Origin: an uncultured Clostridia bacterium
GTDB taxonomy: Bacteria > Bacillota > Clostridia > Oscillospirales > Oscillospiraceae
DNA: 46,406 nucleotides
NCBI GenBank assembly: GCA_945877515.1
Contig: CAMCSE010000011.1
Coordinates: 1 to 46,406 of the forward strand
Direction: 5' to 3'
In this document: positions 2,036-18,975 of the stretch, in pieces
How positions within the stretch are numbered: position 1 is the first letter of the stretch
Layout: each line of letters opens with the position of its first letter
Position numbers and translations under genes: made by a program
Notes under the pieces: generated by a model
The model's database searches: none
Seen by the model: the letters and a program-made list of their open reading frames with translations, nothing else
What the model was told of the DNA's origin: nothing

Positions 2036-2064
2036 TTGCAATGTATGGGGCGCTATGATAGAAT
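2036..2064 (+). promoter_or_regulatory. Sigma-A type promoter for the Mrp/Mbh-like operon
   Basis: TTGCAA, 17 bases, TAGAAT with TGA before the -10. The start would be near 2071, leaving an untranslated leader of about 120 bases before mrpE. Confidence 0.65.
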
Positions 2065-2109
2065 AAATAATTAGTTAAAACTTTTCTTTCTACCGTTATA
2101 AAGAAGTAA

Positions 2110-2161
2110 AACCGCCGCCGGATACATCCCTGTCCTGTACAGACGCATGGATTTGGCGGTT
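2110..2161 (+). promoter_or_regulatory. Structured leader hairpin upstream of mrpE
   Basis: A 7-bp outer stem (AACCGCC at 2110-2116 with GGCGGTT at 2155-2161) encloses an ATCC/GGAT helix (2126-2129 with 2149-2152) and a GTC/GAC-closed apical loop (2132-2144). There is no T-run after it, so it does not look like a terminator. I could not match it to a riboswitch class I know. Confidence 0.45.
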
Positions 2162-2192
2162 ATTTGTAAGGACAGGAGTGGAGCGAGCGAAA

Positions 2193-2669
2193 ATGATCAT
2201 GTGCGTATTTCTGTTTGCCCTGTGGCTGCTGCTCAACGGCAGAGTTACCGTGGAAGTCTGCTTGTTCGGCGTGGTGATCGCCGGTGCGGTGTACGCTTTC
2301 TGCGTATACGCGCTGGGATACCATCCCAGCCATGAAAAGCGGCTTTTGAAGCGGCTGGGCGGCTATGTGGTGTATGTGGCAATGTTGATCTGGGAGATCA
2401 TCAAGGCCAATCTGGCGGTGATCCGGATCATTCTGGTGCCGTCTCACCGGTATCATCCCGCCATTGTGCGGCTGCGGATACCTTTTGAAAAAAATATTTC
2501 CCGGGTACTGCTGAGCAATTCCATTACACTGACGCCGGGCACCGTCACCATTGAGCAGTATGGTGACGAGTTTCTGGTGCTGTGTCTGGACAAGCCCAAC
2601 GCCGACAGCATCCCTGACTGGAAGCTGACCCGGATGCTGCACAAAATGGAGGGTAAAGAATGGAACTGA
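2193..2669 (+). CDS. mrpE: Mrp/Mbh antiporter small subunit MrpE (MbhA)
   Basis: A 158-residue membrane protein with the MrpE/MnhE layout: two N-terminal hydrophobic segments (about 1-45), a third around VVYVAMLIWEIIKANLAVIRII, then a soluble C-terminal domain. That domain carries the family signature VLLSNSITLTPGTVT, followed by the LCLDKP stretch. It is a structural subunit of multi-subunit cation/proton antiporters and of related Mbh complexes in the cytoplasmic membrane. The start is uncertain. I prefer the ATG at 2193; a GTG at 2178 overlaps the AGGAG sequence at 2174-2178, and another ATG lies at 2199. It overlaps the next gene by 10 bases and opens a ten-gene operon. Confidence 0.88.
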   Translation: MIMCVFLFALWLLLNGRVTVEVCLFGVVIAGAVYAFCVYALGYHPSHEKRLLKRLGGYVVYVAMLIWEIIKANLAVIRIILVPSHRYHPAIVRLRIPFEKNISRVLLSNSITLTPGTVTIEQYGDEFLVLCLDKPNADSIPDWKLTRMLHKMEGKEWN

Positions 2670-2974
2670 CCATCCAACAATGCTATGACTACCTGTTCTG
2701 GGGTGTGCTGGTGGCGCTGGCGCTGTGCGTCGTGGCGGTCCTGATCTACATTCTCAAGGCCCATTTGACGGTGGACCGCATCATCGGCATCAACCTGATC
2801 GGCACATTGGTGGTGATCATCATCTGTGTGCTGACCCATTTGCTGGGCGAGGATTATCTGGCGGACATCGCTATTATCTATGTGGTCATGTCCTTTATCG
2901 CCGTGATGATGCTGTGCCGTATCTACATTGATCTTTATGACCGCAGGCGAAAGGAGAAGCAGCATGATCGGTGA
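2660..2974 (+). CDS. mrpF: Mrp/Mbh antiporter subunit MrpF (MbhB)
   Basis: A 104-residue protein with three predicted membrane helices (about 13-33, 40-62 and 68-92). The middle carries the DRIIGINLIGT element characteristic of MrpF/MnhF, and the third helix the ADIAIIYVVMSFIA element. Its C-terminal tail is basic. GGAGGG lies 6 bases before the ATG. It is a small structural subunit of the antiporter membrane domain. It overlaps mrpE by 10 bases and mrpG by 11, so translation of the three is probably coupled. Confidence 0.9.
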   Translation: MELTIQQCYDYLFWGVLVALALCVVAVLIYILKAHLTVDRIIGINLIGTLVVIIICVLTHLLGEDYLADIAIIYVVMSFIAVMMLCRIYIDLYDRRRKEKQHDR

Positions 2975-3323
2975 ATGGATCCGTTTTGGCCTTTGCGCCG
3001 TGTTTATGTTAGCCGGTCTTTTTATCATGGTGGTCTCCATCATCGGCCTGTATCGTTTTGATTTCGCTCTGAACCGCATCCATGCCGCTGCGCTGGGCGA
3101 CACGCTGAGTCTGCTGCTGTTCACGGTGGGGCTCTTAATTGCCGTTGGGTTCCATGCCGTGGTCTGGAAGCTGATACTGGTGCTGGTGCTGCAGTGGCTG
3201 ACCTCACCGCTGAGCAGCCACATGCTCAGCCAGTTCGAGTACCGCGTTGACGAAAACCTTGCCGAGCATGTGGATCTCAGCGACGCGGAATACCGCACCG
3301 AAGGGGAGGTGGCAGACAAATGA
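2964..3323 (+). CDS. mrpG: Mrp/Mbh antiporter subunit MrpG (MbhC)
   Basis: A 119-residue protein of the MrpG/MnhG/PhaG family. The N-terminal helix (GLCAVFMLAGLFIMVVSIIG) is followed by LYRFDFALNRIHAAALGDTL, the family's most conserved stretch, then two more helices. The ATG at 2964 is supported by AAGGAG about 7 bases upstream. The hydrophilic acidic tail (residues 95-119) is slightly long for the family. It is a structural subunit of the complex. Confidence 0.9.
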   Translation: MIGEWIRFGLCAVFMLAGLFIMVVSIIGLYRFDFALNRIHAAALGDTLSLLLFTVGLLIAVGFHAVVWKLILVLVLQWLTSPLSSHMLSQFEYRVDENLAEHVDLSDAEYRTEGEVADK

Positions 3324-3646
3324 TGACGATATTTCGGCTGATCCTGCTGACGGGCCTGATCGTATGTGCCGCAGCCACGGCACTGACCAAAAAGCCCATG
3401 CAGGCAGTCATCATCTATATGGCCTACTCCGTGATCATGTCGGTGGTCTGGATCATGCTGGAATCCCCGGACCTCGCCATCACCGAGGCGGCTGTGGGCG
3501 CGGGCATCACCAGTCTGCTGCTGTTCCTGACGCTGCGTCGGCTGAACCTCATCGACCGGGACGAGGAACACCGTAAGCATGAGGAGGAATCTTTGCGGGA
3601 GCATGCTTCTCACGCGGAGCAGAAAGAGGAGGATGGCCATGCGTAA
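3320..3646 (+). CDS. MbhD-like (DUF4040) antiporter subunit
   Basis: A 108-residue protein matching the MbhD/DUF4040 domain, which in standard Mrp systems is fused inside MrpA. Three helices are visible, with AVIIYMAYSVIMSVVWIMLESPD and LAITEAAVGAGITSLLLF as the recognisable core. The conserved Pro-Asp-Leu-Ala-x-Thr-Glu segment is at 53-59. The last 30 residues are very polar (DEEHRKHEEESLREH). It overlaps mrpG by 4 bases and the next gene by 8. Having this domain as its own gene is the arrangement of Mbh-type hydrogenase complexes rather than of classical Mrp. Confidence 0.88.
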   Translation: MMTIFRLILLTGLIVCAAATALTKKPMQAVIIYMAYSVIMSVVWIMLESPDLAITEAAVGAGITSLLLFLTLRRLNLIDRDEEHRKHEEESLREHASHAEQKEEDGHA

Positions 3647-4541
3647 TGAAAAAGGCTTATTCCGGCGTTGGCTGAACGGTCAGGTAGACTGGTCCGCCAT
3701 GCTGGAGCAGGACACACCCGCAGCAGCAACAACAGCAGCAGCGGAGACCGTCCCCTATCATCCCCATCATGACATGGCCAGCGCCCGCCGTGCGATACGC
3801 TGCGGGCAAAAGGCCTACACCGTTTTGGCCATCGTGCTGTGCCTGATTTTTTCCGCCTTTATGCTGCTGACGGTGGCCAATCTGCCCTCCTACGGCAGTG
3901 ACAGCGCTCCTACGGTCAACGAAGTGGCGGAACGCTATGTGGAAAAAGGCACCGAGGAGACCGGTGCGGTGAATACCGTGGCAGGCATGATCCTGGACTA
4001 CCGTGCTTTCGATACACTGGGCGAGTCCTTTGTGCTGTTCACTGCCATGTGCGCCGTGACCATGCTGATGAATGTCCCCGGTAAGCGCCGGGTCCGCAAG
4101 CTGGATCAGGATACGATGGACTACTATCAGGATCCCATCATCCGCACCGTGTGCAAGCTGGTGATCCCCATTATCCTGATGTTTGGCATATACATTCTGC
4201 TCAACGGCCACCTGTCCCCCGGCGGCGGCTTCTCCGGCGGCGCCATCATGGCTTCGGCCCTGATCATCTACGCGCTGGTATGGGGCGGCGAGCGGGCTTC
4301 CCGTGCCATTCCCGCCAAGGCTCTGCGGATCATCGTGCTGTGCGCGCTGGGCTTCTACGCCTGCTCCAAGACCTACTCCTTCTTCACCGGCGCCAACCAT
4401 CTGCACTCCATCATTTCCCCGGGTACGCCGGGCCGCATCCTGTCTGCCGGACTGATCCTGCCGCTGAACGTGGCGGTGGGCTTTGTGGTATGCTGCACCA
4501 TGTATAGCTTTTACATGTACTTCAGAAGGGGGGAACTGTAA
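3639..4541 (+). CDS. MbhE-MrpB fusion subunit
   Basis: A 300-residue membrane protein that joins two normally separate subunits. The start is the ATG at 3639 (AGAGGAGG 6 bases upstream). Residues 1-55 are a hydrophilic extension with an alanine/threonine-rich stretch coded by CAG/CAA-like triplets (3717-3742). Residues about 60-150 are MbhE-like, ending in the diagnostic NTVAGMILDYRAFDTLGE. Residues about 165-300 are MrpB/MnhB-like, with LNGHLSPGGGFSGGAIMA and four helices. In Mbh operons these are the adjacent genes mbhE and mbhF, so the order is kept. It overlaps the next gene by one base (TAATG). Confidence 0.87.
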   Translation: MRNEKGLFRRWLNGQVDWSAMLEQDTPAAATTAAAETVPYHPHHDMASARRAIRCGQKAYTVLAIVLCLIFSAFMLLTVANLPSYGSDSAPTVNEVAERYVEKGTEETGAVNTVAGMILDYRAFDTLGESFVLFTAMCAVTMLMNVPGKRRVRKLDQDTMDYYQDPIIRTVCKLVIPIILMFGIYILLNGHLSPGGGFSGGAIMASALIIYALVWGGERASRAIPAKALRIIVLCALGFYACSKTYSFFTGANHLHSIISPGTPGRILSAGLILPLNVAVGFVVCCTMYSFYMYFRRGEL

Positions 4542-4936
4542 TGGAAAAGCTGTTCACTCACCTTTTGGAAAACTATGAGGCCTGCGTGGCGGTGGTGCTG
4601 TTTGTCATTGGCCTCTGCATGCTGCTGTTTGACCGGAACCTGCTGAAAAAGGTCATCGGCCTCGATATTATGGATACCGGCACGTTCCTGCTGCTGGCAG
4701 ACCGGGGTTATATCGCCGGTCGGTCGGTGCCTATTGTCACCGATGGCGTAACGGATATGGCCAATTACATCAACCCCATTCCCGCCGGTCTGGTGCTGAC
4801 GGGCATCGTGGTGTCTGTCAGCGTGTCGGCCCTGATGCTGAGCCTGACGGTGCGCATCTACAAAAAGTATCACACGCTGGATATGGACGCGCTGTATCTG
4901 ATGATGTCTGACCGTCGGAAGGGAGGCCGCGTATGA
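4541..4936 (+). CDS. mrpC: MrpC/NuoK-like antiporter subunit
   Basis: A 131-residue protein of the MrpC/MnhC/NuoK family. It has three helices (about 13-30, 33-55 and 82-107). The NYEACVAVVLFVIGLCMLL start and the NPIPAGLVLTGIVVSVSVSALMLSL segment are close to the family's NPLPQALVLTAIVI signature. It lies between the B-type and D-type subunits exactly as in Mbh and Mrp clusters, where it forms part of the lateral ion path of the membrane arm. The C-terminal 25 residues are soluble. Confidence 0.88.
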   Translation: MEKLFTHLLENYEACVAVVLFVIGLCMLLFDRNLLKKVIGLDIMDTGTFLLLADRGYIAGRSVPIVTDGVTDMANYINPIPAGLVLTGIVVSVSVSALMLSLTVRIYKKYHTLDMDALYLMMSDRRKGGRV

Positions 4937-6429
4937 GCTTCGTGCAAAACTTCCCCTTCTTTTCCATCATTCTGTGCCTGCTGTGCGCGGTGGCCACCTT
5001 CGTGGCCGGCGACAGGTGGGGCCGCCGGCTGACCATCGGCCTTCTCTCCGTGTCCATCGTGCTGCAATCCTGCGTGCTGTGGTTCTGCGCCAGCAACAAC
5101 ACCAGCTACGCCTACATGATGGGCCATTATCCCGCCCCGTGGGGCAACGAGATCGCCGCCGGGATCATCGAGCCGCTGATGGCGCTGCTGTTCTCGGTGG
5201 TGCTGCTGCTGAGTGTGCTGGGCGGCATGGATCACATCCTCAAGGATATTCCCGCCGACCGCCACCACCTTTACTGGAGCATGGTGGATCTGACGCTGGT
5301 GTCCCTGCTGGCGCTATCCTATACCAACGATATTTTCACCGGCTATGTGTTTATCGAGATCTGCACCATCGCCTCCTGCGCCTTGCTGTCCGCCAAGGAC
5401 ACAGGCCGCACCCTCATCGCGTCGGTGCGGTACATGGTGTTCGCGCTGGTGGGCTCCGGACTGTTCCTGATCGGTGTGATCTTCACCTATTCCATCACGG
5501 GCCATCTGCTGTTCCCCCAGCTGCATGAGACCATCGCCGCGCTGTGGGCCGAGGGCACCTACCGGTTCTCCATGACGGTGGCCATCGGGTTGATGACGGC
5601 GGGCCTGGCCATCAAGTCCGGTCTGTTCCCCTTCCACTTCTGGATGCCGGACACCTACGGACGGGCCACGCCCGCTTCCTCCGGTATCCTCTCCGGTGTG
5701 GTGTCCAAGGCTTACATCCTGCTGCTGATTAAGGTGATCTACCGCGCTGTGGGCATTGAGGTGTTCGCTGCCAGCGGCATCCAGTCGGTGCTGCTGATCT
5801 TCGGCATTGCCGGTATGATCGTAGGCTCCGTCTCCGCCATCCGTTCCAAACGGCTGACCACCATGGTGGCCTATTCCTCTGCCGCCCAGATCGGCTACAT
5901 CTACATGGGGCTTGGCATGGGAACCCAGGCGGCGCTTCTGGCGGCTTTCCTGCATATCTTCTCTCACGCGCTGACCAAGCCCATGCTGTTCCTGTCGGCT
6001 TCCCAGCTGGCGGACGCCTCCGGCGGCCATATGGATTTTCCCAGCCTGCAGGGTGCGGGACACCGCAATGTCACAGCCGGCGTGCTCTTTACCGCAGGTG
6101 CGCTGAGTATGGTGGGCGTTCCGCTGTTCATCGGCTTTATTCCCAAGCTGCAATTTGCCTCGGCAGCCTTTGAGCTGACGTGGCAGAAGTGGCCTGTACT
6201 ATTGGCTTTGGCCATTTCCACGCTGTTGAACGTGCTGTATTTTCTGTATACTGCCATGGTGCTGTGGCTGCCCCAGAAGGACAACGCAGCCTTCTGTCCG
6301 CAGGAACGGCGATGGATCGCATCGGCGCCTGCCATGGTGCTGCTGGCCATCGGGCTTGTGATCGGTATCCATTCCGCGCCGCTGACGGCGCTGCTGCAGC
6401 AGGGCTTCGCTCTGTTCTGCCAATATTGA
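4933..6429 (+). CDS. mrpD: MrpD-like ion-translocating antiporter subunit (first of four)
   Basis: A 498-residue, roughly 14-helix member of the NuoL/M/N-MrpA/D superfamily. The two charged residues expected for ion transport are present: Glu142 in the fifth helix (VFIEICTIAS) and Lys228 in the seventh (LAIKSGLFPFHFWMPD). The quinone/antiporter signature region around residues 225-265 also includes SGILSGVVSKAYILLLIK. It overlaps mrpC by 4 bases. By order it corresponds to MrpD/MbhH, the principal antiporter subunit of such complexes. Confidence 0.88.
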   Translation: MSFVQNFPFFSIILCLLCAVATFVAGDRWGRRLTIGLLSVSIVLQSCVLWFCASNNTSYAYMMGHYPAPWGNEIAAGIIEPLMALLFSVVLLLSVLGGMDHILKDIPADRHHLYWSMVDLTLVSLLALSYTNDIFTGYVFIEICTIASCALLSAKDTGRTLIASVRYMVFALVGSGLFLIGVIFTYSITGHLLFPQLHETIAALWAEGTYRFSMTVAIGLMTAGLAIKSGLFPFHFWMPDTYGRATPASSGILSGVVSKAYILLLIKVIYRAVGIEVFAASGIQSVLLIFGIAGMIVGSVSAIRSKRLTTMVAYSSAAQIGYIYMGLGMGTQAALLAAFLHIFSHALTKPMLFLSASQLADASGGHMDFPSLQGAGHRNVTAGVLFTAGALSMVGVPLFIGFIPKLQFASAAFELTWQKWPVLLALAISTLLNVLYFLYTAMVLWLPQKDNAAFCPQERRWIASAPAMVLLAIGLVIGIHSAPLTALLQQGFALFCQY

Positions 6430-6451
6430 TGGGAAAGGAGAGCCAAACAAC

Positions 6452-7900
6452 ATGATACTGTACGCTGTGATTCTCCTTCCCACTCTGCTGGGTCTGATCT
6501 GCGCTTTCTTTCCACCCGGCGGCAGCAAAAAGCAAACCGCCTTTATGCTGCTGGCGCAGGCCGTGATTACCGGTGTGGTTCTCTTTGCGGTCTGCAAAGG
6601 AGGCGCACCGTCCACACCGCCGATCTATTTCACTGAAACGCTGACATTTTCCCTGATGATGGATCCGCTGGCCGCCTTCTTCTGTCTGCTGACGGCGGCA
6701 TGCTGGCTGCTGACCATTCTGTACGCCTATGTGTATATGAAGCACGAGGGAAAAGAGCCCCGTTTCTATGCGTTTCTCTTTCTGACCGAGGGCATGGTGT
6801 TCGGTTCGGCGCTGGCCGCCGATCTGATGACGCTGTACCTCTTTTATGAGTTGACCTCGCTGCTCTCTTTCCCGCTGGTGCTTCATTCCCAGAATTTCAA
6901 AGCGTTGCTGGGCGCATCCAAGTACCTGTACTACTCTGTGGGCGGCGCGTTTCTGGCGCTGTTCGGCATGGCTGTCCTGTCCGGCAGCACCTCCCTCTCT
7001 TTCTGCAGCGGCGGCCATCTCACCGCCGGAGAGTTGACCCCCACGCTGATGCTGGCCATCTTCCTGACCGTGCTGGGCTTCAGCGCAAAGGCCGGTCTTT
7101 TCCCCCTGCACAACTGGCTTCCGTCTGCCCATCCTGTGGCCCCGGCACCGGCTCACGCCCTGCTCAGCGGCATTATCGCCAAGGTGGGCGCTATCGCCGT
7201 AATCCGCACCATCTACTGCGTGGTGGGCGCCGAAATTCTGCAAGGCACCTGGCTGCAAACGGTCTGCCTCTGCCTGGCCCTTGTCACCATCTTCATGGGT
7301 TCGTTTATGGGCTGCACGGAAAACGGGCTGAAAAAGCGCCTGGCATATTCCAGTATTTCTCAGATCTCCTATGTGCTCCTGGGGATTTTCATTCTGTCGC
7401 CGCTGGGGCTGACCGGCGCGCTGCTGCAAATCTTTTTCCACGCCGCCGCCAAGATCGGTGTGTTCCAGTCCGCCGGTGCCATCATCTATCTGACAGATGT
7501 AAGCACCATTGACCGCTTCCCCGGTCTGGGAAAGCGGCTCCCGGTCACCATGGTCTGCTTTACCATGCTGGCTCTGTCCCTGGTGGGGATTCCCCCCTTC
7601 GGCGGATTCCACAGCAAGTGGTATCTGGCCACAGCGGCACTGGAGGCGCTGCCGGGCGCCATGGGATATGTGGTGCCTGCCATTCTGCTGGCCTCGGCGC
7701 TGTTTACGGCGGCCTACCTGTTTTCCCCCATTGTTCACAGCTTCTTCCCCGGGAAGGATTTTCCTGCCCAGACAAGGGTCCACGAACCGGCGGCCATGAT
7801 GCTGTCGCTGGTGGTCTTTTCCGTATCCGTGCTTTTGCTGGGCCTGTTCCCCAACGGTGTTATCTCGGTGATGCAGTCCATTGCCGGGACACTGATGTAA
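6452..7900 (+). CDS. NuoL/M-like antiporter subunit (second of four)
   Basis: A 482-residue polytopic protein of the proton-conducting NuoL/NuoM/MrpA family. Glu133 (YLFYELTSLLSF) and Lys213 (FSAKAGLFPLHNWLP) match the conserved helix-5 glutamate and helix-7 lysine. Residues 222-250 (AHPVAPAPAHALLSGIIAK) are the classical NuoL/M signature. GGAAAGGAG precedes the ATG. It follows the MrpD-like gene after 22 bases. Clear divergence from its neighbours argues against a recent duplication. Its exact counterpart (MrpA N-domain or a hydrogenase-4 subunit) cannot be set without alignment. Confidence 0.85.
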   Translation: MILYAVILLPTLLGLICAFFPPGGSKKQTAFMLLAQAVITGVVLFAVCKGGAPSTPPIYFTETLTFSLMMDPLAAFFCLLTAACWLLTILYAYVYMKHEGKEPRFYAFLFLTEGMVFGSALAADLMTLYLFYELTSLLSFPLVLHSQNFKALLGASKYLYYSVGGAFLALFGMAVLSGSTSLSFCSGGHLTAGELTPTLMLAIFLTVLGFSAKAGLFPLHNWLPSAHPVAPAPAHALLSGIIAKVGAIAVIRTIYCVVGAEILQGTWLQTVCLCLALVTIFMGSFMGCTENGLKKRLAYSSISQISYVLLGIFILSPLGLTGALLQIFFHAAAKIGVFQSAGAIIYLTDVSTIDRFPGLGKRLPVTMVCFTMLALSLVGIPPFGGFHSKWYLATAALEALPGAMGYVVPAILLASALFTAAYLFSPIVHSFFPGKDFPAQTRVHEPAAMMLSLVVFSVSVLLLGLFPNGVISVMQSIAGTLM

Positions 7901-7913
7901 GGGAGGTGCTGAC

Positions 7914-9374
7914 ATGAACGGAATTTTACTGTGCCTGCCGGTGTTCCTGCCCATCGTGGCGGGTCTGGCAGCCTACTTCCTCCCCTTCCGCACCGACCGG
8001 GCGCGGCATACACTGTACGCGGTCATCATCGGTCTGACCACTGTGCTGGCGTGGGCGGCCATCCTGCAATGCGACGGCAGCGCCTTTACCTTCCTGCGGT
8101 TCACCGATACGCTGCACTTCACCCTCCGCATGGACGGCGCCGCCAAGCTGTTTGCGGGTCTGTCCGCCTCCCTGTGGCCCTTCACCATGGTGTACGCATG
8201 GGACTACATGAAGCATGAGGGACACAAGCCCATGTTCTGGGCCTTCTTCACCGCATCCTTTGGCGTGACGCTGGGCATCGCCTTCGCCGCCAACATGATG
8301 ACCATGTACCTGTTCTATGAGCTGCTGACGCTGGCCACCATCCCGCTGGTGATGCACGCCATGACCAAGCAGGCCATTCACGCAGGCGTGAAATACGCCG
8401 CCTACTCCATCGCGGGCGCGGCGCTGGCCTTCATCGGCATGGTGTTCCTGATCGTCAACGATGCCCAGGAGTTTGTGCCCGGCGGCCATCTGGCAAACTA
8501 TTCCGGCAGTATGACGCTGCTGCTGGCGGTGTTCGTGCTGGCCTTTGTGGGCTGCGGCGTAAAAGCCGCCATCTGGCCCATGCACAGCTGGCTCATCAGC
8601 GCCGCCGTGGCTCCCACGCCGGTAACGGCGCTGCTGCACGCGGTAGCGGTGGTCAAGGCAGGCGCTTTCGCCTGTATCAGGCTGGTGTATTACAGCTTCG
8701 GTACGGATATTCTCCACGGAACATGGGGCCAGTACACGGTGATGGCGCTGGCCATGATCACGCTGGTGTTTGGCTCCGCCATGGCGCTGAAGCAGCGCCA
8801 CTTCAAGCGGCGGCTTGCTTACTCCACCGTGTCCAACCTCAGCTATATTCTCTTTGCCGCTGCCATCATGACGGCGGAGGGTCTTCTGGCCGCATTCCTG
8901 CACCTGATCGTCCACTCCGTGGTGAAGATCATGGCTTTCTTCTGTGCCGGCAGCGTGCTGCACTACGCCCATCGGGAGTATGTGTCAGAGCTGGAGGGAC
9001 TGGGCAGGCGGATGCCCCTGACCTTCGCCTGCTTCACGGCCGGCGCCTGCGCCCTGACGGGTATTCCACCCTTCAACGGGTTCGTCAGCAAGTGGTATAT
9101 CGGCCTTGCCGCCGTGGGGGAGGGCAGCGTCGCCTCCTGTCTGGGCTTTGCCGCCATTCTCATTTCCGCGCTGCTGACAGCCATCTATATGTTCCAGGTG
9201 GTCATTAAGGCGTGGTTCCCCACCGAGGGCATACGGCTGCCCTCCGAGCAGGACGCCCATGAAGCCGGCGGCTTCATGACGGTGCCCATGCTGATCCTGG
9301 CAGCCTTGTGCCTGTTGATGGGCCTGTTCCCCGATGTACTGCTGAGCGCTATCAGAGAGGCGGTGATCCTGTGA
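7914..9374 (+). CDS. NuoL/M-like antiporter subunit (third of four)
   Basis: A 486-residue polytopic member of the same family. Glu136 (YLFYELLTLATIPL) and Lys217 (GCGVKAAIWPMHSWL) are retained. The signature segment departs from the usual form: AAVAPTPVTALLHAVAVVKAGAF, with VAPTPV in place of VAPAPA and a His-Ala-Val run, resembling the NuoL-type H-A-A-T-M-V-x-A-G region. GGAGGTG stands before the ATG. The upstream gene ends 13 bases earlier, and the next gene overlaps its stop codon (TGATG). Confidence 0.85.
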   Translation: MNGILLCLPVFLPIVAGLAAYFLPFRTDRARHTLYAVIIGLTTVLAWAAILQCDGSAFTFLRFTDTLHFTLRMDGAAKLFAGLSASLWPFTMVYAWDYMKHEGHKPMFWAFFTASFGVTLGIAFAANMMTMYLFYELLTLATIPLVMHAMTKQAIHAGVKYAAYSIAGAALAFIGMVFLIVNDAQEFVPGGHLANYSGSMTLLLAVFVLAFVGCGVKAAIWPMHSWLISAAVAPTPVTALLHAVAVVKAGAFACIRLVYYSFGTDILHGTWGQYTVMALAMITLVFGSAMALKQRHFKRRLAYSTVSNLSYILFAAAIMTAEGLLAAFLHLIVHSVVKIMAFFCAGSVLHYAHREYVSELEGLGRRMPLTFACFTAGACALTGIPPFNGFVSKWYIGLAAVGEGSVASCLGFAAILISALLTAIYMFQVVIKAWFPTEGIRLPSEQDAHEAGGFMTVPMLILAALCLLMGLFPDVLLSAIREAVIL

Positions 9375-11338
9375 TGACAACAATTGCATTGCTTCTGGTG
9401 GTTTTACTGCCGATGCTGTCCGCCATCGTGATTGCTGTCCTGCCGGACCGCCACGATAATGGCAAGCAGTTGGGCACACTGTCCATCGTCTTTACGCTGC
9501 TGACACTGCTGGCTATGGTCTGTGCAGCCGCCACCGGCGACGGCGCCACCGTTACCATACCGGTAATGCGCCTGAGCTTCTGGACCGGCGGTTTCCAGAA
9601 GCTGTACGGCCTTGTGGTGTGCTTCATGTGGTTCGTCTCGGCTCTGCTGAGTCCCCAGTACTTCCATGGGCACCACCAGCTCAAGCGGTATTACTTCTTC
9701 TTCCTGATTTGCTTGGGCTTTACGGCAGGCGTGTTTCTGTCCGCCGACCTGTACACCACCTTCCTGTTCTTTGAACTGATGTCCCTCAGCTCCTATGTCT
9801 GGGTGGTGCAGGAGGAGACTCCCGACGCCATGGACGCCGGCAAAACCTACCTTACCATTGCAGTGCTGGGCGGTCTGGTGACGCTGATGGGCCTGTTCCT
9901 TCTGTACCACATCACCGGCACGCTGGTGATCGCGGAGCTGCACGAGGCCTGCGCCGCTGCGGAGCCCGGCCGTCTGTGGGCCGCTGCGGTGTGCATCCTG
10001 TTTGGCTTCGCCGCCAAGGCCGGTCTGTTCTCCCTGCATATCTGGCTGCCCAAAGCCCATCCGGTAGCGCCTGCTCCGGCATCGGCCCTCCTCAGCGGTG
10101 TGCTGACCAAAGCCGGTATCTTCGGCGTCCTTCTGCTGACCGGGCAAATTCTCACCGGCGACCACACATGGGGCATGCTGCTGTTGGTGCTGGGCGCCAT
10201 TACCATGGTGCTGGGTGCGGTGCTGGCGGTGTTTTCCACCAATCTCAAGTATATTCTGGCCTGCTCCTCCCTGTCCCAGATCGGCTTTATCACCGTGGGC
10301 GTCTCCATGATCTGCCTGCTGGGTGAACACAACGCACTGGCCGCCAACGGTACGGTGCTGTATATGCTGAACCATTCTCTGGTAAAGCTGACGCTGTTCC
10401 TGTTCGCCGGTGTGGTCTATTACAATACCCATGCGCTGGATCTCAATGAGATCAAGGGCTTCGGACGGGGCAAGCCGCTGCTGCATGTACTGTTTTTGTG
10501 CGGCGCCTGCTCGCTGGCCGGTATTCCGGGCTTCCTGGGATATCTCAGCAAGACGCTGATCCACGAATCGCTGGTGGAATACGCCCACATGAGCGGCATG
10601 ACCCTTATCACCGTGGTGGAGTGGCTGTTCCTGTTCTCCGGCGGCCTGACGACGGCGTATCTCACCAAGATCTATGTGGCCATCTTCTGTCAAAAGGGCC
10701 GGGAAACCGGCAAAAAGTGGGGCACTCCCCTGTCGGTGCTTACCCTGTGTCTGGCCGCTGTCGCCCTGCCCCTGCTGGGGCTGACGCCCCATGTGTTGGC
10801 GGAAAAGATCAGCGGCACAACGCTGGACTTCACCGGCGGACACGCCTTCGGCCACGCTATCCACTACTTCTCCTGGACAAACCTGAAGGGTGTGGTGATC
10901 TCGCTGGCCATCGGCATGATCGTGTACTTCCTGTTGATCCGTACGGTGCTGATGACCAAGGACGGGCGGTATCTCAACCGTTGGCCCAAGTGGCTCAACA
11001 TGGAGGAATACCTTTACAAGCCCTTCTTCCGTGGACTGTTTGCTGTGCTGGATGTGGTGTGCCGTGCCGTCTGCGACGTTCTCGACGTGATCGTACTGCT
11101 GATCCGGCGGACGCTGCTGCGGGACAGCCGGGATGAGAAGCCTGTGCGCTCCTATTCCCCACTGGTGCAGGCCATTGCCCGGCAAAGCGGCGACAAGGCC
11201 GCTCAGTCGGCAGCCGACCGTCTGGATACCGACCTGGATGTACTGGGCCGCATGACGGGAAGCCTGTCCTTCGGTCTGCTGATGACCTGTCTGGGTCTGT
11301 GCGTGGTCTTAACCGTGGTCATTGTATCCATATTCTGA
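9374..11338 (+). CDS. NuoL-like antiporter subunit with C-terminal extension (fourth of four)
   Basis: A 654-residue polytopic protein. The first 500 residues are a NuoL/MrpA-type core with Glu134 (LFFELMSLSSYVW), Lys215 (GFAAKAGLFSLHIWLP) and the VAPAPASALLSGVLTK signature. A further 150 residues hold helices near 520-545, a polar stretch (LLRDSRDEKPVRSYSPL) and a last helix (SLSFGLLMTCLGLCVVL) at the C-terminus. NuoL-type subunits use such an extension as a lateral helix that clamps the antiporter subunits together; that role here is inference. It is the last gene of the operon, with a terminator directly after the stop. Confidence 0.85.
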   Translation: MTTIALLLVVLLPMLSAIVIAVLPDRHDNGKQLGTLSIVFTLLTLLAMVCAAATGDGATVTIPVMRLSFWTGGFQKLYGLVVCFMWFVSALLSPQYFHGHHQLKRYYFFFLICLGFTAGVFLSADLYTTFLFFELMSLSSYVWVVQEETPDAMDAGKTYLTIAVLGGLVTLMGLFLLYHITGTLVIAELHEACAAAEPGRLWAAAVCILFGFAAKAGLFSLHIWLPKAHPVAPAPASALLSGVLTKAGIFGVLLLTGQILTGDHTWGMLLLVLGAITMVLGAVLAVFSTNLKYILACSSLSQIGFITVGVSMICLLGEHNALAANGTVLYMLNHSLVKLTLFLFAGVVYYNTHALDLNEIKGFGRGKPLLHVLFLCGACSLAGIPGFLGYLSKTLIHESLVEYAHMSGMTLITVVEWLFLFSGGLTTAYLTKIYVAIFCQKGRETGKKWGTPLSVLTLCLAAVALPLLGLTPHVLAEKISGTTLDFTGGHAFGHAIHYFSWTNLKGVVISLAIGMIVYFLLIRTVLMTKDGRYLNRWPKWLNMEEYLYKPFFRGLFAVLDVVCRAVCDVLDVIVLLIRRTLLRDSRDEKPVRSYSPLVQAIARQSGDKAAQSAADRLDTDLDVLGRMTGSLSFGLLMTCLGLCVVLTVVIVSIF

Positions 11339-11339
11339 A

Positions 11340-11370
11340 AAAGAGGGTGCTGTTCAAAAGCACCCTCTTT
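11340..11370. terminator. Terminator at the end of the Mrp/Mbh-like operon
   Basis: A 12-bp perfect stem, AAAGAGGGTGCT with AGCACCCTCTTT, around a 7-base loop, starting 2 bases after the last stop. The T-run is short (TTT then GATTTG). Confidence 0.75.
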
Positions 11371-11459: not shown

Positions 11460-11537
11460 GGTAGCATTCTATCGTTCTTCTCAGGAAATAATATTTCCGT
11501 AAAGGATACCGTCAGTAAAAGAAAGGAGACACAATGC

Positions 11538-12731
11538 ATGAAAGTTCTGGTAATCAACTGCGGCAGCAGTTCACTGAAGTATCAGCTGATTGATTCCCGG
11601 TCAGAAGAAGTGCTGGCCGCCGGCCTGTGTGAACGCATCGGTATTGACGGCCGCATGACACACACGCCGTCGAGCGGCAATACTGTGGTGAAAAACGATC
11701 CACTGCCGGATCACGGTGCGGCTATTCAGGCGGTGCTCTCGGCCCTGACAGACAAGGCGCACGGCGTGATCAGTTCTCTCGGCGAGATCGGTGCGGTGGG
11801 ACACCGGCTGGTGCACGGCGGTGAAAAATTTGCCGCCTCGGTGATCATCAACGATGAGGTCATCGCCGAAGTAGAGGCCTGCAACGATCTGGCACCTCTT
11901 CACAATCCCGCCAACCTTATCGGCGTGCGTGCCTGCCGGCAGATCATGCCGGATGTGCCTATGGTGGGCGTGTTTGACACCGCCTTTCACCAGACTATGC
12001 CTCCCAAGGCGTATCTCTACGGTATTCCCCATCAATACTATCAGGAGCACAAGGTACGGCGCTATGGCTTCCACGGTACCTCCCACAATTATGTTGCCAA
12101 GCGGGTCCATCATCTTGCGGAACTGGATCCTGACAACTCCCGGGTCATCGTGTGCCATCTGGGTAATGGCGCCAGCGTCACCGCCGTAAAAAACGGCAAA
12201 TCGGTGGATACCTCCATGGGGTTGACACCGCTGGAGGGTCTCATCATGGGCACCCGCAGCGGTGATCTGGACCCGGGCGTCATCGAGTACATCGCCAAAA
12301 AGGAGCATCTGACGCTGGAAGAAGTCCTTAAGGTGCTGAACAAGGAGTCCGGCGTGCTGGGCCTGTCCGGTGTCTCCAGTGACTTCCGTGATCTTACCGA
12401 GGCCATGGAACAGGGCAATGAGCAGGCAGCCGTCGCCGTGGAAGCCTTCTGCTATCGTGTGGCCAAGCATATCGGCGCCTATACGGCGGCTCTGAACGGC
12501 GTGGACGCCATTGTGTTCACCGCCGGTATCGGCGAGAATGCCGCCCATATCCGCAGTATGATATGCGACTATCTGGGCTTTTTGGGCATCACCATCGACG
12601 AGGAGAAGAATGCCGTCCGCGGTAAAGAGGCGGAGATCTCCACGCCTGATTCCAAGGTGTCGGTGTTCGTCATCCCCACAAATGAGGAACTGGCCATCGC
12701 CCGGGAGACGGCAGCGCTGCTGGGTGAGTAA
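11538..12731 (+). CDS. ackA: Acetate kinase
   Basis: A 397-residue cytoplasmic acetate kinase, which makes ATP and acetate from acetyl phosphate and ADP in fermentation. Diagnostic parts are the N-terminal VINCGSSSLKYQL, the substrate region VGHRLVHGGEKF, RYGFHGTSHNYV, the adenosine-binding CHLGNGASVTAV, TSMGLTPLEGLIMGTRSGD, and FTAGIGENAAHIR near the C-terminus. Length is normal (about 400). The ATG at 11538 follows AAAGGAG by 9 bases; the upstream in-frame ATG lies before the promoter. It stands alone, without the phosphotransacetylase gene that is often adjacent, between its own promoter and a strong terminator. Confidence 0.97.
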   Translation: MKVLVINCGSSSLKYQLIDSRSEEVLAAGLCERIGIDGRMTHTPSSGNTVVKNDPLPDHGAAIQAVLSALTDKAHGVISSLGEIGAVGHRLVHGGEKFAASVIINDEVIAEVEACNDLAPLHNPANLIGVRACRQIMPDVPMVGVFDTAFHQTMPPKAYLYGIPHQYYQEHKVRRYGFHGTSHNYVAKRVHHLAELDPDNSRVIVCHLGNGASVTAVKNGKSVDTSMGLTPLEGLIMGTRSGDLDPGVIEYIAKKEHLTLEEVLKVLNKESGVLGLSGVSSDFRDLTEAMEQGNEQAAVAVEAFCYRVAKHIGAYTAALNGVDAIVFTAGIGENAAHIRSMICDYLGFLGITIDEEKNAVRGKEAEISTPDSKVSVFVIPTNEELAIARETAALLGE

Positions 12732-12811: not shown

Positions 12812-15763
12812 TTACGCAAACAGGTAGCCATACTTGTCACGAATGGTGACGATCAGCGTCTCCAGCTCGGCAGGCAGATTGTTCTTTCCGCTCAGGTCGT
12901 AGTCCTTCGGCTCGCCGAAAGTGCGGACACGCACCTTATCGCCGCCCAGGAACAGCACGCCGGCGTTGGTGGAATCCATCATGTCCTCCGCCGTCTGGAA
13001 CACCGTGAACTTGTCATGGCAGGGCTCGGAAGCGTAGGGGCAGAACTGGGTGCAGTTGCCGCACTCGTTGCACATCTTGTCCACATGGACGATCTGATGC
13101 TTTCCATCAGCCATGGCAATGGCTATGTTGGAACGGTTGGGGCAGGAATCCACACAATTCTCACATACCGTCTGGCACTGCAGGCAGCGCTCACCCTCAC
13201 GGCAGGGATACTCCGCCATTTTCAGCACGCCCTTCTTGGCGGCGGCGTCAGCAATGGTGACGTAAGCCTGCGCGGGGATCTCATAAGTATGCGGCGCACC
13301 GATGACCTCTTCGGCAAAGCGGGCGGCGTCGGCGATTCCCTCGACAACGGTAGCGGGGCCGCGGGTCGCATCACCGGCGGCGTATACGCCCTCAATATTG
13401 GTCTTGAAGGCGGGGCGGCCCTTCTTGTCCAGTTCAATGCCGTTGGCGGTCATGAGGGCGTCGTCCACCTGCTCGCCCACGGCGGAGACCACCAGATCGC
13501 AAGGGATGTCGAAGAACTCGCCGCTTCCCACGGGACTGCGGCGGCCGGAGGCGTCCGCCTCGCCCAGTACCATCTTCTCACACGTCAGCACGCCATCTGC
13601 CTGCTTGACAGGAGCCGCCAGTTCGGCAAACGTCACGCCGTCCGCCAGCGCCAGTGCCAACTCATGCTCGTCGGCGGGCATATACTTGCGGGTACGGCGA
13701 TATACCAGCGTCACATGCTCCGCGCCGCTGCGCTTGGCGAGACGTGCCGCGTCCATAGCGGTATTGCCGCCGCCGATCACGGCCACGTTGCCGGCCACGG
13801 CAATATTGCCGGCCTTGACGCCCTTCATCCACTGGATGGCGCCTGCCACATCGCCGGGGATATCCAGCTTACCGGGCTTCCATGCGCCTACGGCAAAGAG
13901 GATATGGGTATAGCCCTGCTGTTTCAGCTCCGCCACGGAGGGGGCAGGTGCGCCGCACTTCACCTCGACGCCGTACTTCTCCATCATGGCGATATCCTTG
14001 GCGATCGTCTCGTCGGCAATGCGGAAGCTGGGGATCACATGGCGGGGTACGCCGCCCAGTTCCTTTTCCCGCTCAAAGATGGTCACTGCCACACCGGAGC
14101 GGGCCAGGAAATTGGCCGCCGCAATACCGGTGGGACCGCCGCCGATGATGGCAGCCTTTTTACCGGCCACCTTTTCGGTGGGGCGGATATCGGCCATAAC
14201 AGCGCAATACCCCTTCTTGGCCGCCACCAGCTTGGCGTCACGGATATGGACGGACTCCTCATAGAAGTTACGGGAGCACTTGTTCTGACAGCGGTGGGTG
14301 CAGATGGTGCCGGTGATAAAGGGCAGCGGGTTCTTCTCAATGATCAGCTTCAGCGCCGGGCCGTACAGGCCCTTGTTCACCAGCTCGATGTACTCGGGGA
14401 TATCCTGTGCAATGGGGCAGCCGCCCTTGCAGGGTGCGGAGAAGCAGTCGATCCAGGGCACGCCCTTGTCGCTCTTGCGGCTGGGCAGCGGCTTGATGGG
14501 CTTGACGTGATGCACATCGGTGTGGCTGGCGGCGGACATTTCGCAGATGGCCTCGGTGTCGGTGCCGTCGAAGGGTTGATAAGCCATAGGCTCCACCTTC
14601 TCCACCATCTGCCGCAGGCGGTTGTAGCCGCCGGGTTTGAGGATGGTAGTGGCCACGGTAATGGGCCAGATACCGGCAGCGAACAGCTTGTCGCAGTTGA
14701 AATACTCCGCACCGCCGGCGAAGGAAATGCGCATCTTGCCCTTGAACTGGCGGGAGATCCGGTGGCACATCTCGATGGTCAGGGGGAACAGACTGCGGCC
14801 GGACATGTACATCTCGTTGTTGGGCAGCTCGCCCCGGGTGGTGTCCACAGGGAAGGTATTGGACAGCTTCAGGCCGAACTCCAGGCCCTTGCTGTCGGCC
14901 AGTGCCTGCAAACGCTCGAACATGGGCACGGCGTCGGCCCACTGGAGATCCTCGTTGAAGTGATGCTCATCGAACACGATGTAGTCGTAGCCCATGGAAT
15001 CCAGCGTGCGCCGTGCGGTCTCGTAGCCCAGAATGGTGGGGTTGCACTTGACAAAGGTATGCAGGTGCTTCTCCGTGATCAGATAGCTGGCAATACGCTC
15101 GATCTCATCGGGAGGACAGCCGTGGAGGGTGGAGACGGTGACGGAGCGGCTGACACGGGGATCGATGGTGTCGATGTAGGCGCTCTCCTCCGGGAACAGC
15201 TCCTTCAGAACGCCCTTGCACTCGCCGAAGATGGCGGTCTTGTTGGCGTCCATCATGCCGTCAATATAGGTGTTGACCTTATCGCCCTTGATGCCCTCCA
15301 GATCGTAGCCCACGGACATGTTGAACACGAAGCCGTTGGGATCACCGAAGCCATAGACCTTGGAAAGCACTTTCAGGGCGCACCACGCCTTGATATACTC
15401 ATCCATGGCCTGGGGCACGGTCAGCTCGGTGGACCACTCCTGGTTATAGCCCTCGTCATTGGCCAGGATGCAGGGACGGGGCACACAGGCGGCCAGCTCG
15501 GCGCCGTCCATCTTCTGGACGGTCTTGACCTCGAAGAAACGGGCGCCGGCCATGTAGGCGGCGATAATGTTCTGAGCCAGCTGGCTGTTGGGGCCGGCAG
15601 CAGGGCCAAAGGGTGTTTCGATACGCTCGCCGAAAATGGGCAGGCTCTTGCCGGTGGCGTGATACGCCTTGCGGACACCGAAGATCTCGCCGGAGTTGGC
15701 GTATTCGGTAACCACCCAGTTCATCAGCGACTTAAAGGGAATCGGATACATTTTTTCAGACAT
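12812..15763 (-). CDS. ygfK: YgfK-type flavin/iron-sulfur oxidoreductase (putative selenate reductase subunit)
   Basis: A 983-residue multidomain cytoplasmic redox protein matching the YgfK family. Residues 1-420 resemble a dihydroorotate-dehydrogenase/glutamate-synthase-like barrel. Residues 435-500 hold cysteines (CFSAPCKGGCP, CTHRCQNKC) like the GltD-type cluster domain. Residues 536-830 are an FAD/NAD(P)H module with IIGGGPTGIAAA and VIGGGNTAMDAARLAKRSG. Residues 854-875 and 898-915 are ferredoxin-like (CNECGNCTQFCPYASEPC). 'Selenate reductase' is an inherited name; the gene is now mainly linked to anaerobic purine-type degradation together with ssnA. It lies 15 bases after ssnA and shares its transcript. 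The substrate is unknown here. Confidence 0.92.
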   Translation of the reverse strand: MSEKMYPIPFKSLMNWVVTEYANSGEIFGVRKAYHATGKSLPIFGERIETPFGPAAGPNSQLAQNIIAAYMAGARFFEVKTVQKMDGAELAACVPRPCILANDEGYNQEWSTELTVPQAMDEYIKAWCALKVLSKVYGFGDPNGFVFNMSVGYDLEGIKGDKVNTYIDGMMDANKTAIFGECKGVLKELFPEESAYIDTIDPRVSRSVTVSTLHGCPPDEIERIASYLITEKHLHTFVKCNPTILGYETARRTLDSMGYDYIVFDEHHFNEDLQWADAVPMFERLQALADSKGLEFGLKLSNTFPVDTTRGELPNNEMYMSGRSLFPLTIEMCHRISRQFKGKMRISFAGGAEYFNCDKLFAAGIWPITVATTILKPGGYNRLRQMVEKVEPMAYQPFDGTDTEAICEMSAASHTDVHHVKPIKPLPSRKSDKGVPWIDCFSAPCKGGCPIAQDIPEYIELVNKGLYGPALKLIIEKNPLPFITGTICTHRCQNKCSRNFYEESVHIRDAKLVAAKKGYCAVMADIRPTEKVAGKKAAIIGGGPTGIAAANFLARSGVAVTIFEREKELGGVPRHVIPSFRIADETIAKDIAMMEKYGVEVKCGAPAPSVAELKQQGYTHILFAVGAWKPGKLDIPGDVAGAIQWMKGVKAGNIAVAGNVAVIGGGNTAMDAARLAKRSGAEHVTLVYRRTRKYMPADEHELALALADGVTFAELAAPVKQADGVLTCEKMVLGEADASGRRSPVGSGEFFDIPCDLVVSAVGEQVDDALMTANGIELDKKGRPAFKTNIEGVYAAGDATRGPATVVEGIADAARFAEEVIGAPHTYEIPAQAYVTIADAAAKKGVLKMAEYPCREGERCLQCQTVCENCVDSCPNRSNIAIAMADGKHQIVHVDKMCNECGNCTQFCPYASEPCHDKFTVFQTAEDMMDSTNAGVLFLGGDKVRVRTFGEPKDYDLSGKNNLPAELETLIVTIRDKYGYLFA

Positions 15764-15778
15764 GGTTTATCTCCTCTC

Positions 15779-17122
15779 TTAGTACACGCGATGGTTCAGG
15801 TCGCCCCACAGCTTCTTGGCGGCCTCCAGAATGTGGGCATTCTCCGCTTCCTCGTCGATACCCACCAGCACGCGGTCCTTCATCAGCAGCTTGCCGGCGG
15901 CGATGGTGGTCTGGCACTGACGGCCGGTCATGCCGAAGATCATGTGGCCGTCGATGTTCTCATCGGAGAAGGGGGTGTAGGGCTTGTAGTCCATGACGAT
16001 GATATCCGCCGCAGCGCCGGCTTTCAGCGCGCCCAGCTGCTGGGGGAAGTACCGTGCGCCGATCCTGGCATTATTCTTGAACAGCATGTCGGTGACCTCA
16101 CACCATGCCACATTGGGCAGGCAGTTCTGGCTCCGCTGGGAGCACAGGGCCACCTTCAGGGATTCCAGCATATCGTTGGTATAGGCGTCGGTGCCCATGC
16201 CCAGCAGGATGCCCCGCTTGTGCAGCTGCAGCACCGGGCAGATGCCGATGGCGTTGCCCATATTGGACTCAGGGTTGTTGACCACCATGGTGCCGGTCTC
16301 CTTGATAATGTCCATCTCGGCGGTATTTACATGGATGCAGTGGCCCAGAATGGTCTTTTCGCCCAGAATACCGTGATCCTGCAAACGCTGCACCGGACGG
16401 CGGCCGTAATTCTGCAGGCTGTCGTACACATCGTTCATGCCCTCGGACACATGGATGTGGTAGCCAGTGCGGCCGTTGTTGGCCTCCACCATGCGGTCAA
16501 AGGTCTTGTCAGAGATGGTGAACAGGGCGTGACCGCCGAACATGGCCGCCAGCATAGGATCGTTCTCCTTCTGGCAATAGGTGATGAAGTCGGCGTTCTC
16601 CTTGATGGCCTGCAGGCACTTCTCCTCGCCGTCCCGGTCGGACACCTCATAGCACAGGCAAGAGCGCAGGCCCAGACGGCGTGACTCCTCGCTGATGGTA
16701 AACAGCGTACCGGGGATCTCGCCATAGCTGGCGTGGTGGTCGAAAATGGTGGTAACGCCCTGCTTGATGGAGTCGATGTACAGCGCCGTGGCGGAGGCGC
16801 GGGTGCCGTCCATCATCAGGTGGCGGTCGATGGCCCACCATGTGCCATCCAGCACCTCATAGAAATTGGTAGGATTGTTGCCCACGATGCTCAGGCCCCG
16901 GGCCAGCGCGGAATAGATGTGGGTGTGGGCATTGATGAACGCCGGCATGATCACGCCGCCCTTGGCGTCAAGGATCTCCGCTTCGGGATATTTGGCCCGC
17001 AGCGCGGCCTCCTCACCTACCTCCACGATGTTGGCGCCCTCATAGGCCACCGCACCATGCTCATAATAGCCCTTACCCTCGCCATCACGGGTAATCAGTC
17101 TGCCGTTGGTCAGCAAAGTCAT
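15779..17122 (-). CDS. ssnA: SsnA-type amidohydrolase
   Basis: A 447-residue cytoplasmic metal-dependent hydrolase of the chlorohydrolase/guanine-deaminase branch. Metal ligands are visible: His66 and His68 (NAHTHIYS), His224 (GYHIHVSEG), His261 (LGHCIHV) and Asp312 (GMGTDAYTND). The C-terminal beta-sandwich (GAAADIIVMDYKPYTPF, then the GRQCQTTIAAGKLLMKD strand) closes the fold. The family is annotated as a putative aminohydrolase and travels with ygfK and other purine-catabolic genes. The ATG at 17122 has AGGAGG upstream. It is the first gene of a two-gene operon with a long structured leader and its own promoter. The true substrate (a purine or a ring-opened derivative) is inference. Confidence 0.92.
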   Translation of the reverse strand: MTLLTNGRLITRDGEGKGYYEHGAVAYEGANIVEVGEEAALRAKYPEAEILDAKGGVIMPAFINAHTHIYSALARGLSIVGNNPTNFYEVLDGTWWAIDRHLMMDGTRASATALYIDSIKQGVTTIFDHHASYGEIPGTLFTISEESRRLGLRSCLCYEVSDRDGEEKCLQAIKENADFITYCQKENDPMLAAMFGGHALFTISDKTFDRMVEANNGRTGYHIHVSEGMNDVYDSLQNYGRRPVQRLQDHGILGEKTILGHCIHVNTAEMDIIKETGTMVVNNPESNMGNAIGICPVLQLHKRGILLGMGTDAYTNDMLESLKVALCSQRSQNCLPNVAWCEVTDMLFKNNARIGARYFPQQLGALKAGAAADIIVMDYKPYTPFSDENIDGHMIFGMTGRQCQTTIAAGKLLMKDRVLVGIDEEAENAHILEAAKKLWGDLNHRVY

Positions 17123-18865: not shown

Positions 18866-18883
18866 AGTACGTTCACTATGACC

Positions 18884-18975
18884 ACATTCCTACGCCGGCA
18901 TTATCCGGATCAGGTTCGAGGGATCACAGCGGCGATACGCTGTATCTCAGCCGGTTTGCACCAGCACCCCTTGTA
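18884..18975 (-). ncRNA. TPP riboswitch (THI element)
   Basis: The minus strand carries the conserved thi-box parts in order: GGGGTGC, GGCTGAGATAC, a variable hairpin (CAGCG/CGCTG), ATCCCTCGAACCTGATC, then CGGATAATGCCGGCGTAGGAA. It senses thiamine pyrophosphate and should reduce thiT expression when thiamine is plentiful. Confidence 0.96.

Follow-up and report, generated by a model that had tools for sequence, protein, structure and literature searches.

Does an operon that joins the front genes of a membrane-bound hydrogenase (MBH) cluster to four antiporter-like subunits encode the membrane arm of a redox-driven pump, or a cation/proton antiporter that works on its own? The question is raised by a ten-gene operon in a 46,406-nucleotide (nt) stretch of DNA from an uncultured Clostridia bacterium of the Oscillospiraceae (contig CAMCSE010000011.1, assembly GCA_945877515.1), the whole of which we call the window. 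A preliminary description of the window had named both possibilities. Our analysis points to a stand-alone Mrp-type antiporter (cation:proton antiporter family 3 (CPA3), group 3) with four antiporter-like subunits, which we consider likely on the grounds of sequence. This reading is carried by the composition, order and conservation of the operon, by the pump residues kept in all four subunits and by a search in which no redox partner was found, and is complemented by the predicted fold of the last subunit. The class, group 3 Mrp, is already known; what appears to be new is that a four-unit form exists, that it is widely conserved among gut Clostridia, and that MrpF bears a signature. Our literature search, which covered open-access but not subscription papers, yielded none describing a stand-alone Mrp with four antiporters.

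The ten genes lie on the + strand at 2178-11338, several overlapping and none more than 22 nt from its neighbor, in the order E-F-G-MbhD-(MbhE+MrpB)-C, followed by four NuoL/M/N-like subunits that we call D1 to D4 (Table 1). All ten proteins exceeded the Pfam gathering score, for MNHE, MrpF_PhaF, PhaG_MnhG, MbhD, MbhE and MnhB (in a single protein), Oxidored_q2, and four times Proton_antipo_M, and no NCBIfam family listed (the best 25 families for the four antiporters) reached its cut-off for any of them. Pfam profiles and gene coordinates show that the Mbh/Mrp-type operon given in the preliminary description, with its subunit order, is real and complete, and that its composition had been read almost exactly correctly.

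This ten-gene operon is conserved in Clostridia, mostly in metagenome-assembled genomes (MAGs) from the gut. It was present in 14 of the 60 genomes searched, namely, the window's own, 10 of 31 other members of the genus, one from another genus of the family, and two from other families of the order. When named genomes were scanned with D4, at least 515 relatives were obtained, of which the best 80 were analyzed. According to their record titles, these are mainly Lachnospiraceae, Oscillospiraceae, and Clostridia or Clostridiales MAGs from the animal gut, with a few isolates (e.g., Anaerotignum neopropionicum and Parablautia muri; L109, L117). All ten genes stood in order in 68 of the 80 loci, a figure that combines tblastn (65/80) and profiles (64/80), each of which overlooked a gene or counted one twice in a small number of loci; the remaining 12 end at a contig edge, within 6.1 kb upstream of D4. 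Since the order recurs in 14/60 genomes and 68/80 named loci, chance is excluded as its source. A class-wide draw, in which two candidates per genome were scored, gave a D4 profile match at E <= 1e-60 in 38 of 393 genomes, at least one of these matches (G125) being a redox-linked antiporter. A few reading frames were split by a frameshift or an assembly error: the third antiporter of L066 and L116, divided over two frames, and likewise the third antiporter of L137 and the first of L131.

Table 1. Features of the operon and its borders in the window
Feature	Position	Strand	Basis
Weak sigma-70-like promoter match, upstream of operon	2036..2064	+	9/12 consensus, TG before second hexamer
MrpE/MbhA (MNHE)	2178..2669	+	Pfam PF01899, 99.8 bits
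MrpF/MbhB	2660..2974	+	Pfam PF04066, 38.4 bits; aligned to 6z16_F, 6u8y_B, 6cfw_B
MrpG/MbhC	2964..3323	+	Pfam PF03334, 68 bits
MbhD	3320..3646	+	Pfam PF13244, 69.7 bits; E56 = MBH E69 in 6cfw_D alignment
MbhE + MrpB fusion	3639..4541	+	Pfam PF20501 + PF04039; compared with 6u8y_E, 6cfw_E/F, 7d3u_A
MrpC/MbhG/NuoK	4541..4936	+	Pfam PF00420, 68.7 bits; best PDB match 6u8y_G
D1, antiporter-like, adjoins MrpC (MrpD/MbhH position)	4933..6429	+	Pfam PF00361, 139.7 bits
D2, antiporter-like, middle type	6452..7900	+	Pfam PF00361, 177.5 bits; tree position
D3, antiporter-like, middle type	7914..9374	+	Pfam PF00361, 173.7 bits; tree position
D4, antiporter-like with C-terminal extension	9374..11338	+	Pfam PF00361, 184.7 bits; AlphaFold, Foldseek
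Intrinsic terminator-like hairpin, closes operon	11340..11370	+	12 pairs, loop of 7

Known relatives and the search for a redox partner

Group 3 Mrp systems are defined by the lack of mrpA, only mrpD-like genes being present, sometimes in several copies (PMC8415708). The window agrees with this definition: homologues of mrpE, F, G, B, C, and D stand in one operon, and MbhD and MbhE are separate from every antiporter subunit. Unlike in group 1/2 Mrp, no antiporter domain is fused to MbhD/MbhE, and grouping of D4 with MrpA was rejected by an approximately unbiased (AU) test (p-AU 0.0007) on 23 chosen rows, selected after an earlier tree had been seen. The stand-alone mrpEFGBB'CD of Pyrococcus furiosus, a group 3 Mrp for which there is evidence of coupling to Na+, resembles the window in its front order and in having neither an MrpA gene nor a redox module in the published description (PMC8415708). 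It contains one antiporter-like subunit against four here, and its fusion joins MbhD to MbhE, whereas that of the window joins MbhE to MrpB. In Peptoclostridium acidaminophilum DSM 3953, an operon whose annotation reads Na+/H+ antiporter and proton-conducting subunits shares with the window the order E-F-G-MbhD-MbhE-MrpB-C-antiporters, an Asn in MrpF, counterparts of D1 and D4, and the lack of redox genes in the stretch, but has three antiporters and separate genes for MbhE and MrpB. As for group 1/2 Mrp (Bacillus, Anoxybacillus, and Dietzia; 7qru, 6z16, and 7d3u), the E, F, G, B module, MrpC, and MrpD are alike, and the D4 model resembles the N-terminal half of their MrpA in fold; their two antiporter units, their MrpA as one long protein, their Asp in MrpF, and their gene order differ from the window.

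MBH and sulfane sulfur reductase (MBS; 6cfw, 6u8y) are similar in gene order and in the type of MbhD, MbhE, and MrpC, and MBH or MBS chains are the best PDB matches of the window's MbhD, MbhE+MrpB, and MrpC. However, they have hydrogenase/NuoB/NuoH-like modules, none of which was found with the window operon, and one or two antiporters. The hydrogenase genes had earlier been described as replaced by antiporter subunits; this fits the gene order, but a stand-alone Mrp is the closer comparison. Surplus antiporter subunits, an extra middle one among them, are also described for the 2M complex I and the Complex_I_3 of Candidatus Manganitrophaceae, which, unlike the window's system, are quinone oxidoreductases with a peripheral arm (PMC9040806).

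The operon could nevertheless supply the membrane arm of an Mbh/Mbs/complex I-like pump driven by redox chemistry, with the genes for the peripheral arm at another site in the genome; like MBH, MBS, and complex I, it does have antiporter-like subunits with Glu-5 and Lys-7. We searched for NuoB (PF01058), NuoH (PF00146), and NuoD (PF00346) in the window's own genome and 59 relatives. None of the three was found in 13 of the 14 operon-bearing genomes, i.e., the window's own (80.6% complete) and 12 other holders, among them G008, which is 100% complete in two contigs. In known redox pumps of this kind, NuoH is the subunit to which the peripheral arm is attached. Ten of the 14 holders are at least 90% complete, and among these, G015 alone has NuoB, NuoH, and NuoD, on a separate contig and in a one-antiporter cluster of their own (NuoD-E-F-G-MbhD-MbhE-B-C-antiporter-NuoH-NuoB-NuoI). 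The four-antiporter operon (L028) and a redox-linked one-antiporter cluster (L040) are hence found in the same genome, which lends itself to a comparison of both within a single cell. The NuoB, NuoD, and NuoH profiles had no match anywhere in the window or in the 94 operon loci, each covering up to about 20 kb and the window being included in full.

A redox-driven pump gains some support from the first seven genes, which follow the order mbhA-mbhH, from 4Fe-4S proteins adjoining some clusters, from a PRK12771-type flavoprotein downstream of the operon in a sub-clade, and from rnfD and rnfC, which lie divergently beside mrpE in two related Clostridia (L045:324-2563 and L046:306-2611). Against it stand the 13 of 14 holders without NuoB, NuoH, and NuoD, the redox-linked members of the family (L038-L040, L149), with a single antiporter each and Asp in their MrpF, and the neighbor genes, which are not conserved. 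We regard this alternative as largely refuted and a peripheral arm of known kind, coded elsewhere, as very unlikely. The earlier suggestion of a membrane arm is thus contradicted, while the remark that the operon itself lacks an electron-transfer partner agrees with the absence of NuoB, NuoD, and NuoH profile matches from all 94 loci.

A specific link between Rnf and the operon was also considered and rejected. The two are adjacent in 2 of the 94 loci, the other 92 being without rnfD and rnfC at this place, and RnfC occurs in 58 of the 60 genomes (57 above the cut-off), so there is no specific association.

Four antiporter-like subunits

D1, D2, D3, and D4 keep the Glu of helix 5 (E142, E133, E136, and E134, respectively) and the Lys of helix 7 (K228, K213, K217, and K215), at the positions given in the preliminary description, and two more lysines each, on helix 8 (K259, K244, K248, and K246) and helix 12 (K405, K389, K393, and K393), the helices being numbered as in NuoL/M/N. 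In the 81 loci with exactly four antiporter genes, where subunits were assigned by gene order, these 16 positions are Glu or Lys throughout, except for Lys-8 of D3 (73 Lys, 8 Asn) and one gap at Glu-5 of D1. This is consistent with the earlier proposal that all four subunits may pump.

In a tree of 70 rows, D1 clusters with the subunits that come first in three-antiporter operons and D4 with those that come last in most of them, the last subunits of L138, L139, L144, and L145 forming a separate clade. D2, D3, and the middle subunit of these operons share one clade, in which D2 and D3 come out as sister clades (99/100). A tree of 23 rows instead joins D3 to this middle subunit (88/94), and an AU test did not reject a position of D2 outside (p-AU 0.247); the sister relation suggested by the larger tree, and hence the age of the duplication, is not robust. 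Since the fourth subunit of L141 branches apart from D2 and D3 in the 70-row tree, the four-antiporter state may have been reached more than once.

The AlphaFold model of D4 (predicted local distance difference test, 85.9; predicted template modeling score, 0.83) has a lateral-type helix at 543-580 and a last helix at 608-653. With Foldseek, MrpA chains matched it best, over 600 to 662 columns, 7qru_A being the top chain. D4 is thus predicted to fold like the N-terminal half of MrpA and is probably a distal, MrpA-N/NuoL-like subunit. D1 and D4 would stand for the usual MrpD and MrpA-N, with D2 and D3 in addition to them. The preliminary description had considered that the additional genes might be an MrpA split in two; this applies to D4 in role only, as judged from the model, but not by the tree, and D2 and D3 are extra.

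The idea that the lateral helix is longer in four- than in three-antiporter operons was dropped as not general: in 74 of 94 D4 proteins, the lateral-helix stretch is as long as its counterpart in three-antiporter operons or exceeds it by a single residue. It is longer by 21 to 28 residues in 13/94 and by 44 to 56 in 7/94, with L050, L061, L095, and L148 among the lengthened ones; in L050 and L095, the addition resembles repeats of an 'LE..xYxP' unit. The complex I forms mentioned above contain lateral-helix inserts of about 26 residues (PMC9040806), a size similar to that of the additions in one-fifth of the D4 proteins.

An unchanged lateral helix in 74/94 would suit a complex in which D1 and D4 are the two working pumps and D2 and D3 act as spacers or regulators or are alternative subunits, leaving the stoichiometry as it is, and Mrp itself is thought to work near 2 H+ per Na+ (PMC7419157). 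However, a Glu/Lys/Lys/Lys set kept in all four subunits across 81 loci, with variation in Lys-8 of D3 alone, is unlike a relaxed spacer. We consider two working pumps unlikely.

The number of antiporters varies among relatives. Three-antiporter versions are common in the class. Twenty regions were fetched from other families of the class, chosen by likeness to D4, and in 14 of them the same front is followed by three antiporters and the stretch is free of redox genes; the other six comprised four antiporters in L137, L141, L148, and L147 (up to the contig end), a cut region (L143), and a redox-linked one (L149). A haloarchaeal plasmid has three antiporters, two of them fused. Of the 34 stand-alone clusters in the phylum sample described below, three have one antiporter after MbhD/MbhE, five have two, 21 have three, and five have four, two of the last five including a short piece; L162, L186, L187, and L199 have further antiporters before mrpE. 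L187 contains five antiporter genes in one run (B-C-ant-E-F-G-MbhD-MbhE-ant x4), and L193 contains four, two of them short.

We infer that all ten proteins form one complex, which would exchange a cation, presumably Na+, for H+. E, F, G, and MrpB would make up the cation module and MbhD, MbhE, and MrpC the junction; D1 would lie beside MrpC, as MrpD does, and D4, with its lateral helix, at the far end, as the N-terminal half of MrpA does, while D2 and D3 would be two versions of the middle subunit that is present once in related three-antiporter operons. Protons passing through the row of subunits would drive the cation out, or the reverse, by electrostatic coupling as proposed for Mrp and with no electron transfer. 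With two more pump units than usual, four complete units may raise the H+:cation ratio or the gradient that can be attained, in fermenters with an Rnf pump. Since the host lineage has Rnf (RnfC above the cut-off in 57/60 genomes), a cation circuit to be balanced is plausible. The enlarged Na+/H+ antiporter of the preliminary description is thus supported as an enlarged, stand-alone group 3 Mrp, with Na+ as its presumed cation.

The ion ratio of Mrp is not fully established (PMC7419157), and there is no settled figure for the ions that one antiporter-like subunit transports in a cycle. A family that varies mainly in subunit number, from one to four in stand-alone form and free of redox chemistry, would open this question to a simple vesicle assay and would tell how fermenting gut bacteria balance cation and proton gradients.

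MrpF and the cation path

In Anoxybacillus, D35 of MrpF is described as invariably conserved, as lying on the Na+ path, and as important to activity (PMC7419157). N45 of the window's MrpF aligns with D35 of Anoxybacillus flavithermus MrpF (6z16_F, with 6u8y_B and 6cfw_B in the alignment), while D39 is kept. The column is Asn in 82/82 four-antiporter operons (the window included, three records counted twice) and also in Peptoclostridium and Halobaculum. In a second set, all 22 stand-alone clusters, 17 of which were new, had Asn, and all 4 redox-linked ones had Asp.

A sample of the phylum was drawn regardless of likeness to the window operon, taking about every second MrpF-family match in 299 genomes (60 loci, four genomes twice). 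The residue was acidic in all 22 MrpA-type or redox-linked clusters: 19 Asp and 1 Glu in the 20 MrpA-type clusters, one of which was classed by gene order alone as its MrpA is cut off, and Asp in both redox-linked ones. In contrast, the 34 stand-alone clusters without MrpA had 24 Asn, 5 Gly, 1 Ser, and 4 Asp; four further loci, too short to class, had 3 Asn and 1 Asp. The loci share ancestry, and the counts therefore represent nonindependent events. The clusters with Asp (L186, L201, L202, and L204) are stand-alone as far as their stretches show and are true exceptions; their last antiporter has about 500 to 520 residues and is without the long C-terminal extension of D4. Judged from these alignments, an MrpF Asp goes with MrpA-type and redox-linked clusters, a feature outside the group 3 definition, and its presence or absence could serve as a simple sequence mark for annotating Mrp-like clusters.

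Other residues of the cation path are present in the window: the MbhD Glu (E56), the Asp and Glu of MbhE (D127 and E131), and the His and Phe of MrpB (H193 and F200), their correspondence to the MrpA/MrpB residues described in PMC9568556 being by motif reading. In the family, they are kept in 82/82, 81/83, 83/83, 80/83, and 83/83 sequences, respectively, and Asp51 of MbhD is kept as well.

With Asn in place of D35 of MrpF, the cation route or the cation may differ. The operon might then encode a stand-alone antiporter for a cation other than Na+ (K+, NH4+, Ca2+, or another) or with another entry route, of which the Asp-to-Asn change would be the mark. The uniform Asn of the four-antiporter operons points this way, as does the phylum sample, with nonacidic residues in 30/34 stand-alone clusters against acidic ones in 20/20 MrpA-type and 2/2 redox-linked clusters, and a TrkH gene adjoins the operon in L034. 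On the other hand, the MbhD Glu, the MbhE Glu, and the MrpB Phe are kept, as is the MrpB His in 80/83, and the group 3 Mrp of P. furiosus, whose MrpF letter lies outside our comparison, appears to use Na+ (PMC8415708). A different cation or entry route strikes us as rather doubtful, if worth keeping in mind.

Several observations weigh against a stand-alone Na+ antiporter with four pump units. Asp35 of MrpF is absent from the window, the first Asp of the MbhE DYRxxD motif is kept in 66/83, and the MrpB Asp121 column is Asn in 73/83, the window included, as it is in MBH. The D4 lateral-helix stretch, mostly of three-antiporter length, does not speak for an arm braced from end to end. As for redox partners, the 80.6% completeness of the window's own genome bears on the search, and 4Fe-4S proteins adjoin some clusters: in the window, a 254-amino-acid protein with two 4Fe-4S motifs and an unassigned C-terminal part is encoded divergently upstream of the operon (1110-1874), and in the otherwise stand-alone L161, L170, L175, and L180, a NuoI-profile (4Fe-4S) match precedes mrpE, on the opposite strand in L180. 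Finally, RnfC is nearly universal in the relatives and so not specific to operon holders, and the window's own draft has only a subthreshold RnfC match (19.7 bits).

A broader proposal, which we put forward tentatively, is that stand-alone clusters form a gear series in which one cation module is combined with one to four proton units, the number of which would set the H+ per cation. The four-unit form would have become fixed in many gut Clostridia, and a changed cation entry (MrpF Asp to Asn) would set most of the class apart from redox-linked and MrpA-type systems.

Surroundings of the operon

Promoter-like matches, including the one upstream of the operon, are near chance (7 found versus 4.5 expected; standard deviation, 2.4), while 19 terminator-like sites were found in the scanned stretch against 8.6 expected; the terminator earlier placed after the operon is matched by the 12-pair hairpin that ends at 11370. 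A leader RNA or riboswitch was sought at the 5' end of the operon in the window and the loci of 20 relatives, and none was found directly there. The window has a hairpin-rich leader that recurs in the near-identical G005 and that, by eye, nine other genus members lack. Likewise, among 13 relatives compared, G005 alone has a homologue of the 1110-1874 protein beside the operon.

No conserved partner gene was found next to the operon: no family occurred in more than 10/86 loci downstream or 7/86 upstream, in a survey whose greedy open reading frame calling chose antisense frames in G+C-rich loci (E was called in 51/86), so that rarer partners may escape it. In the window, an acetate kinase gene, named from sequence alone (about 11535-12731), adjoins the selenium-metabolism pair ygfK and ssnA (12812-17276), which is preceded by an ssnA RNA motif (17229-17276). 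A thiamine pyrophosphate (TPP) riboswitch (18870-18981) and a ribosomal protein L10 leader (44071-44200) lie further along. Downstream of the operon in L034 (3359-6893), the TrkH cation transporter gene is accompanied by a ygfK/PRK12771-like flavoprotein gene. Similar flavoproteins are encoded downstream, on the operon's strand, in seven loci of close relatives, that of L033 being identified as PRK12771-type. Upstream of the three-antiporter operon of L144 (4918-6750), a cyclic di-AMP riboswitch is found together with a SulP-like transporter, the latter named by eye.

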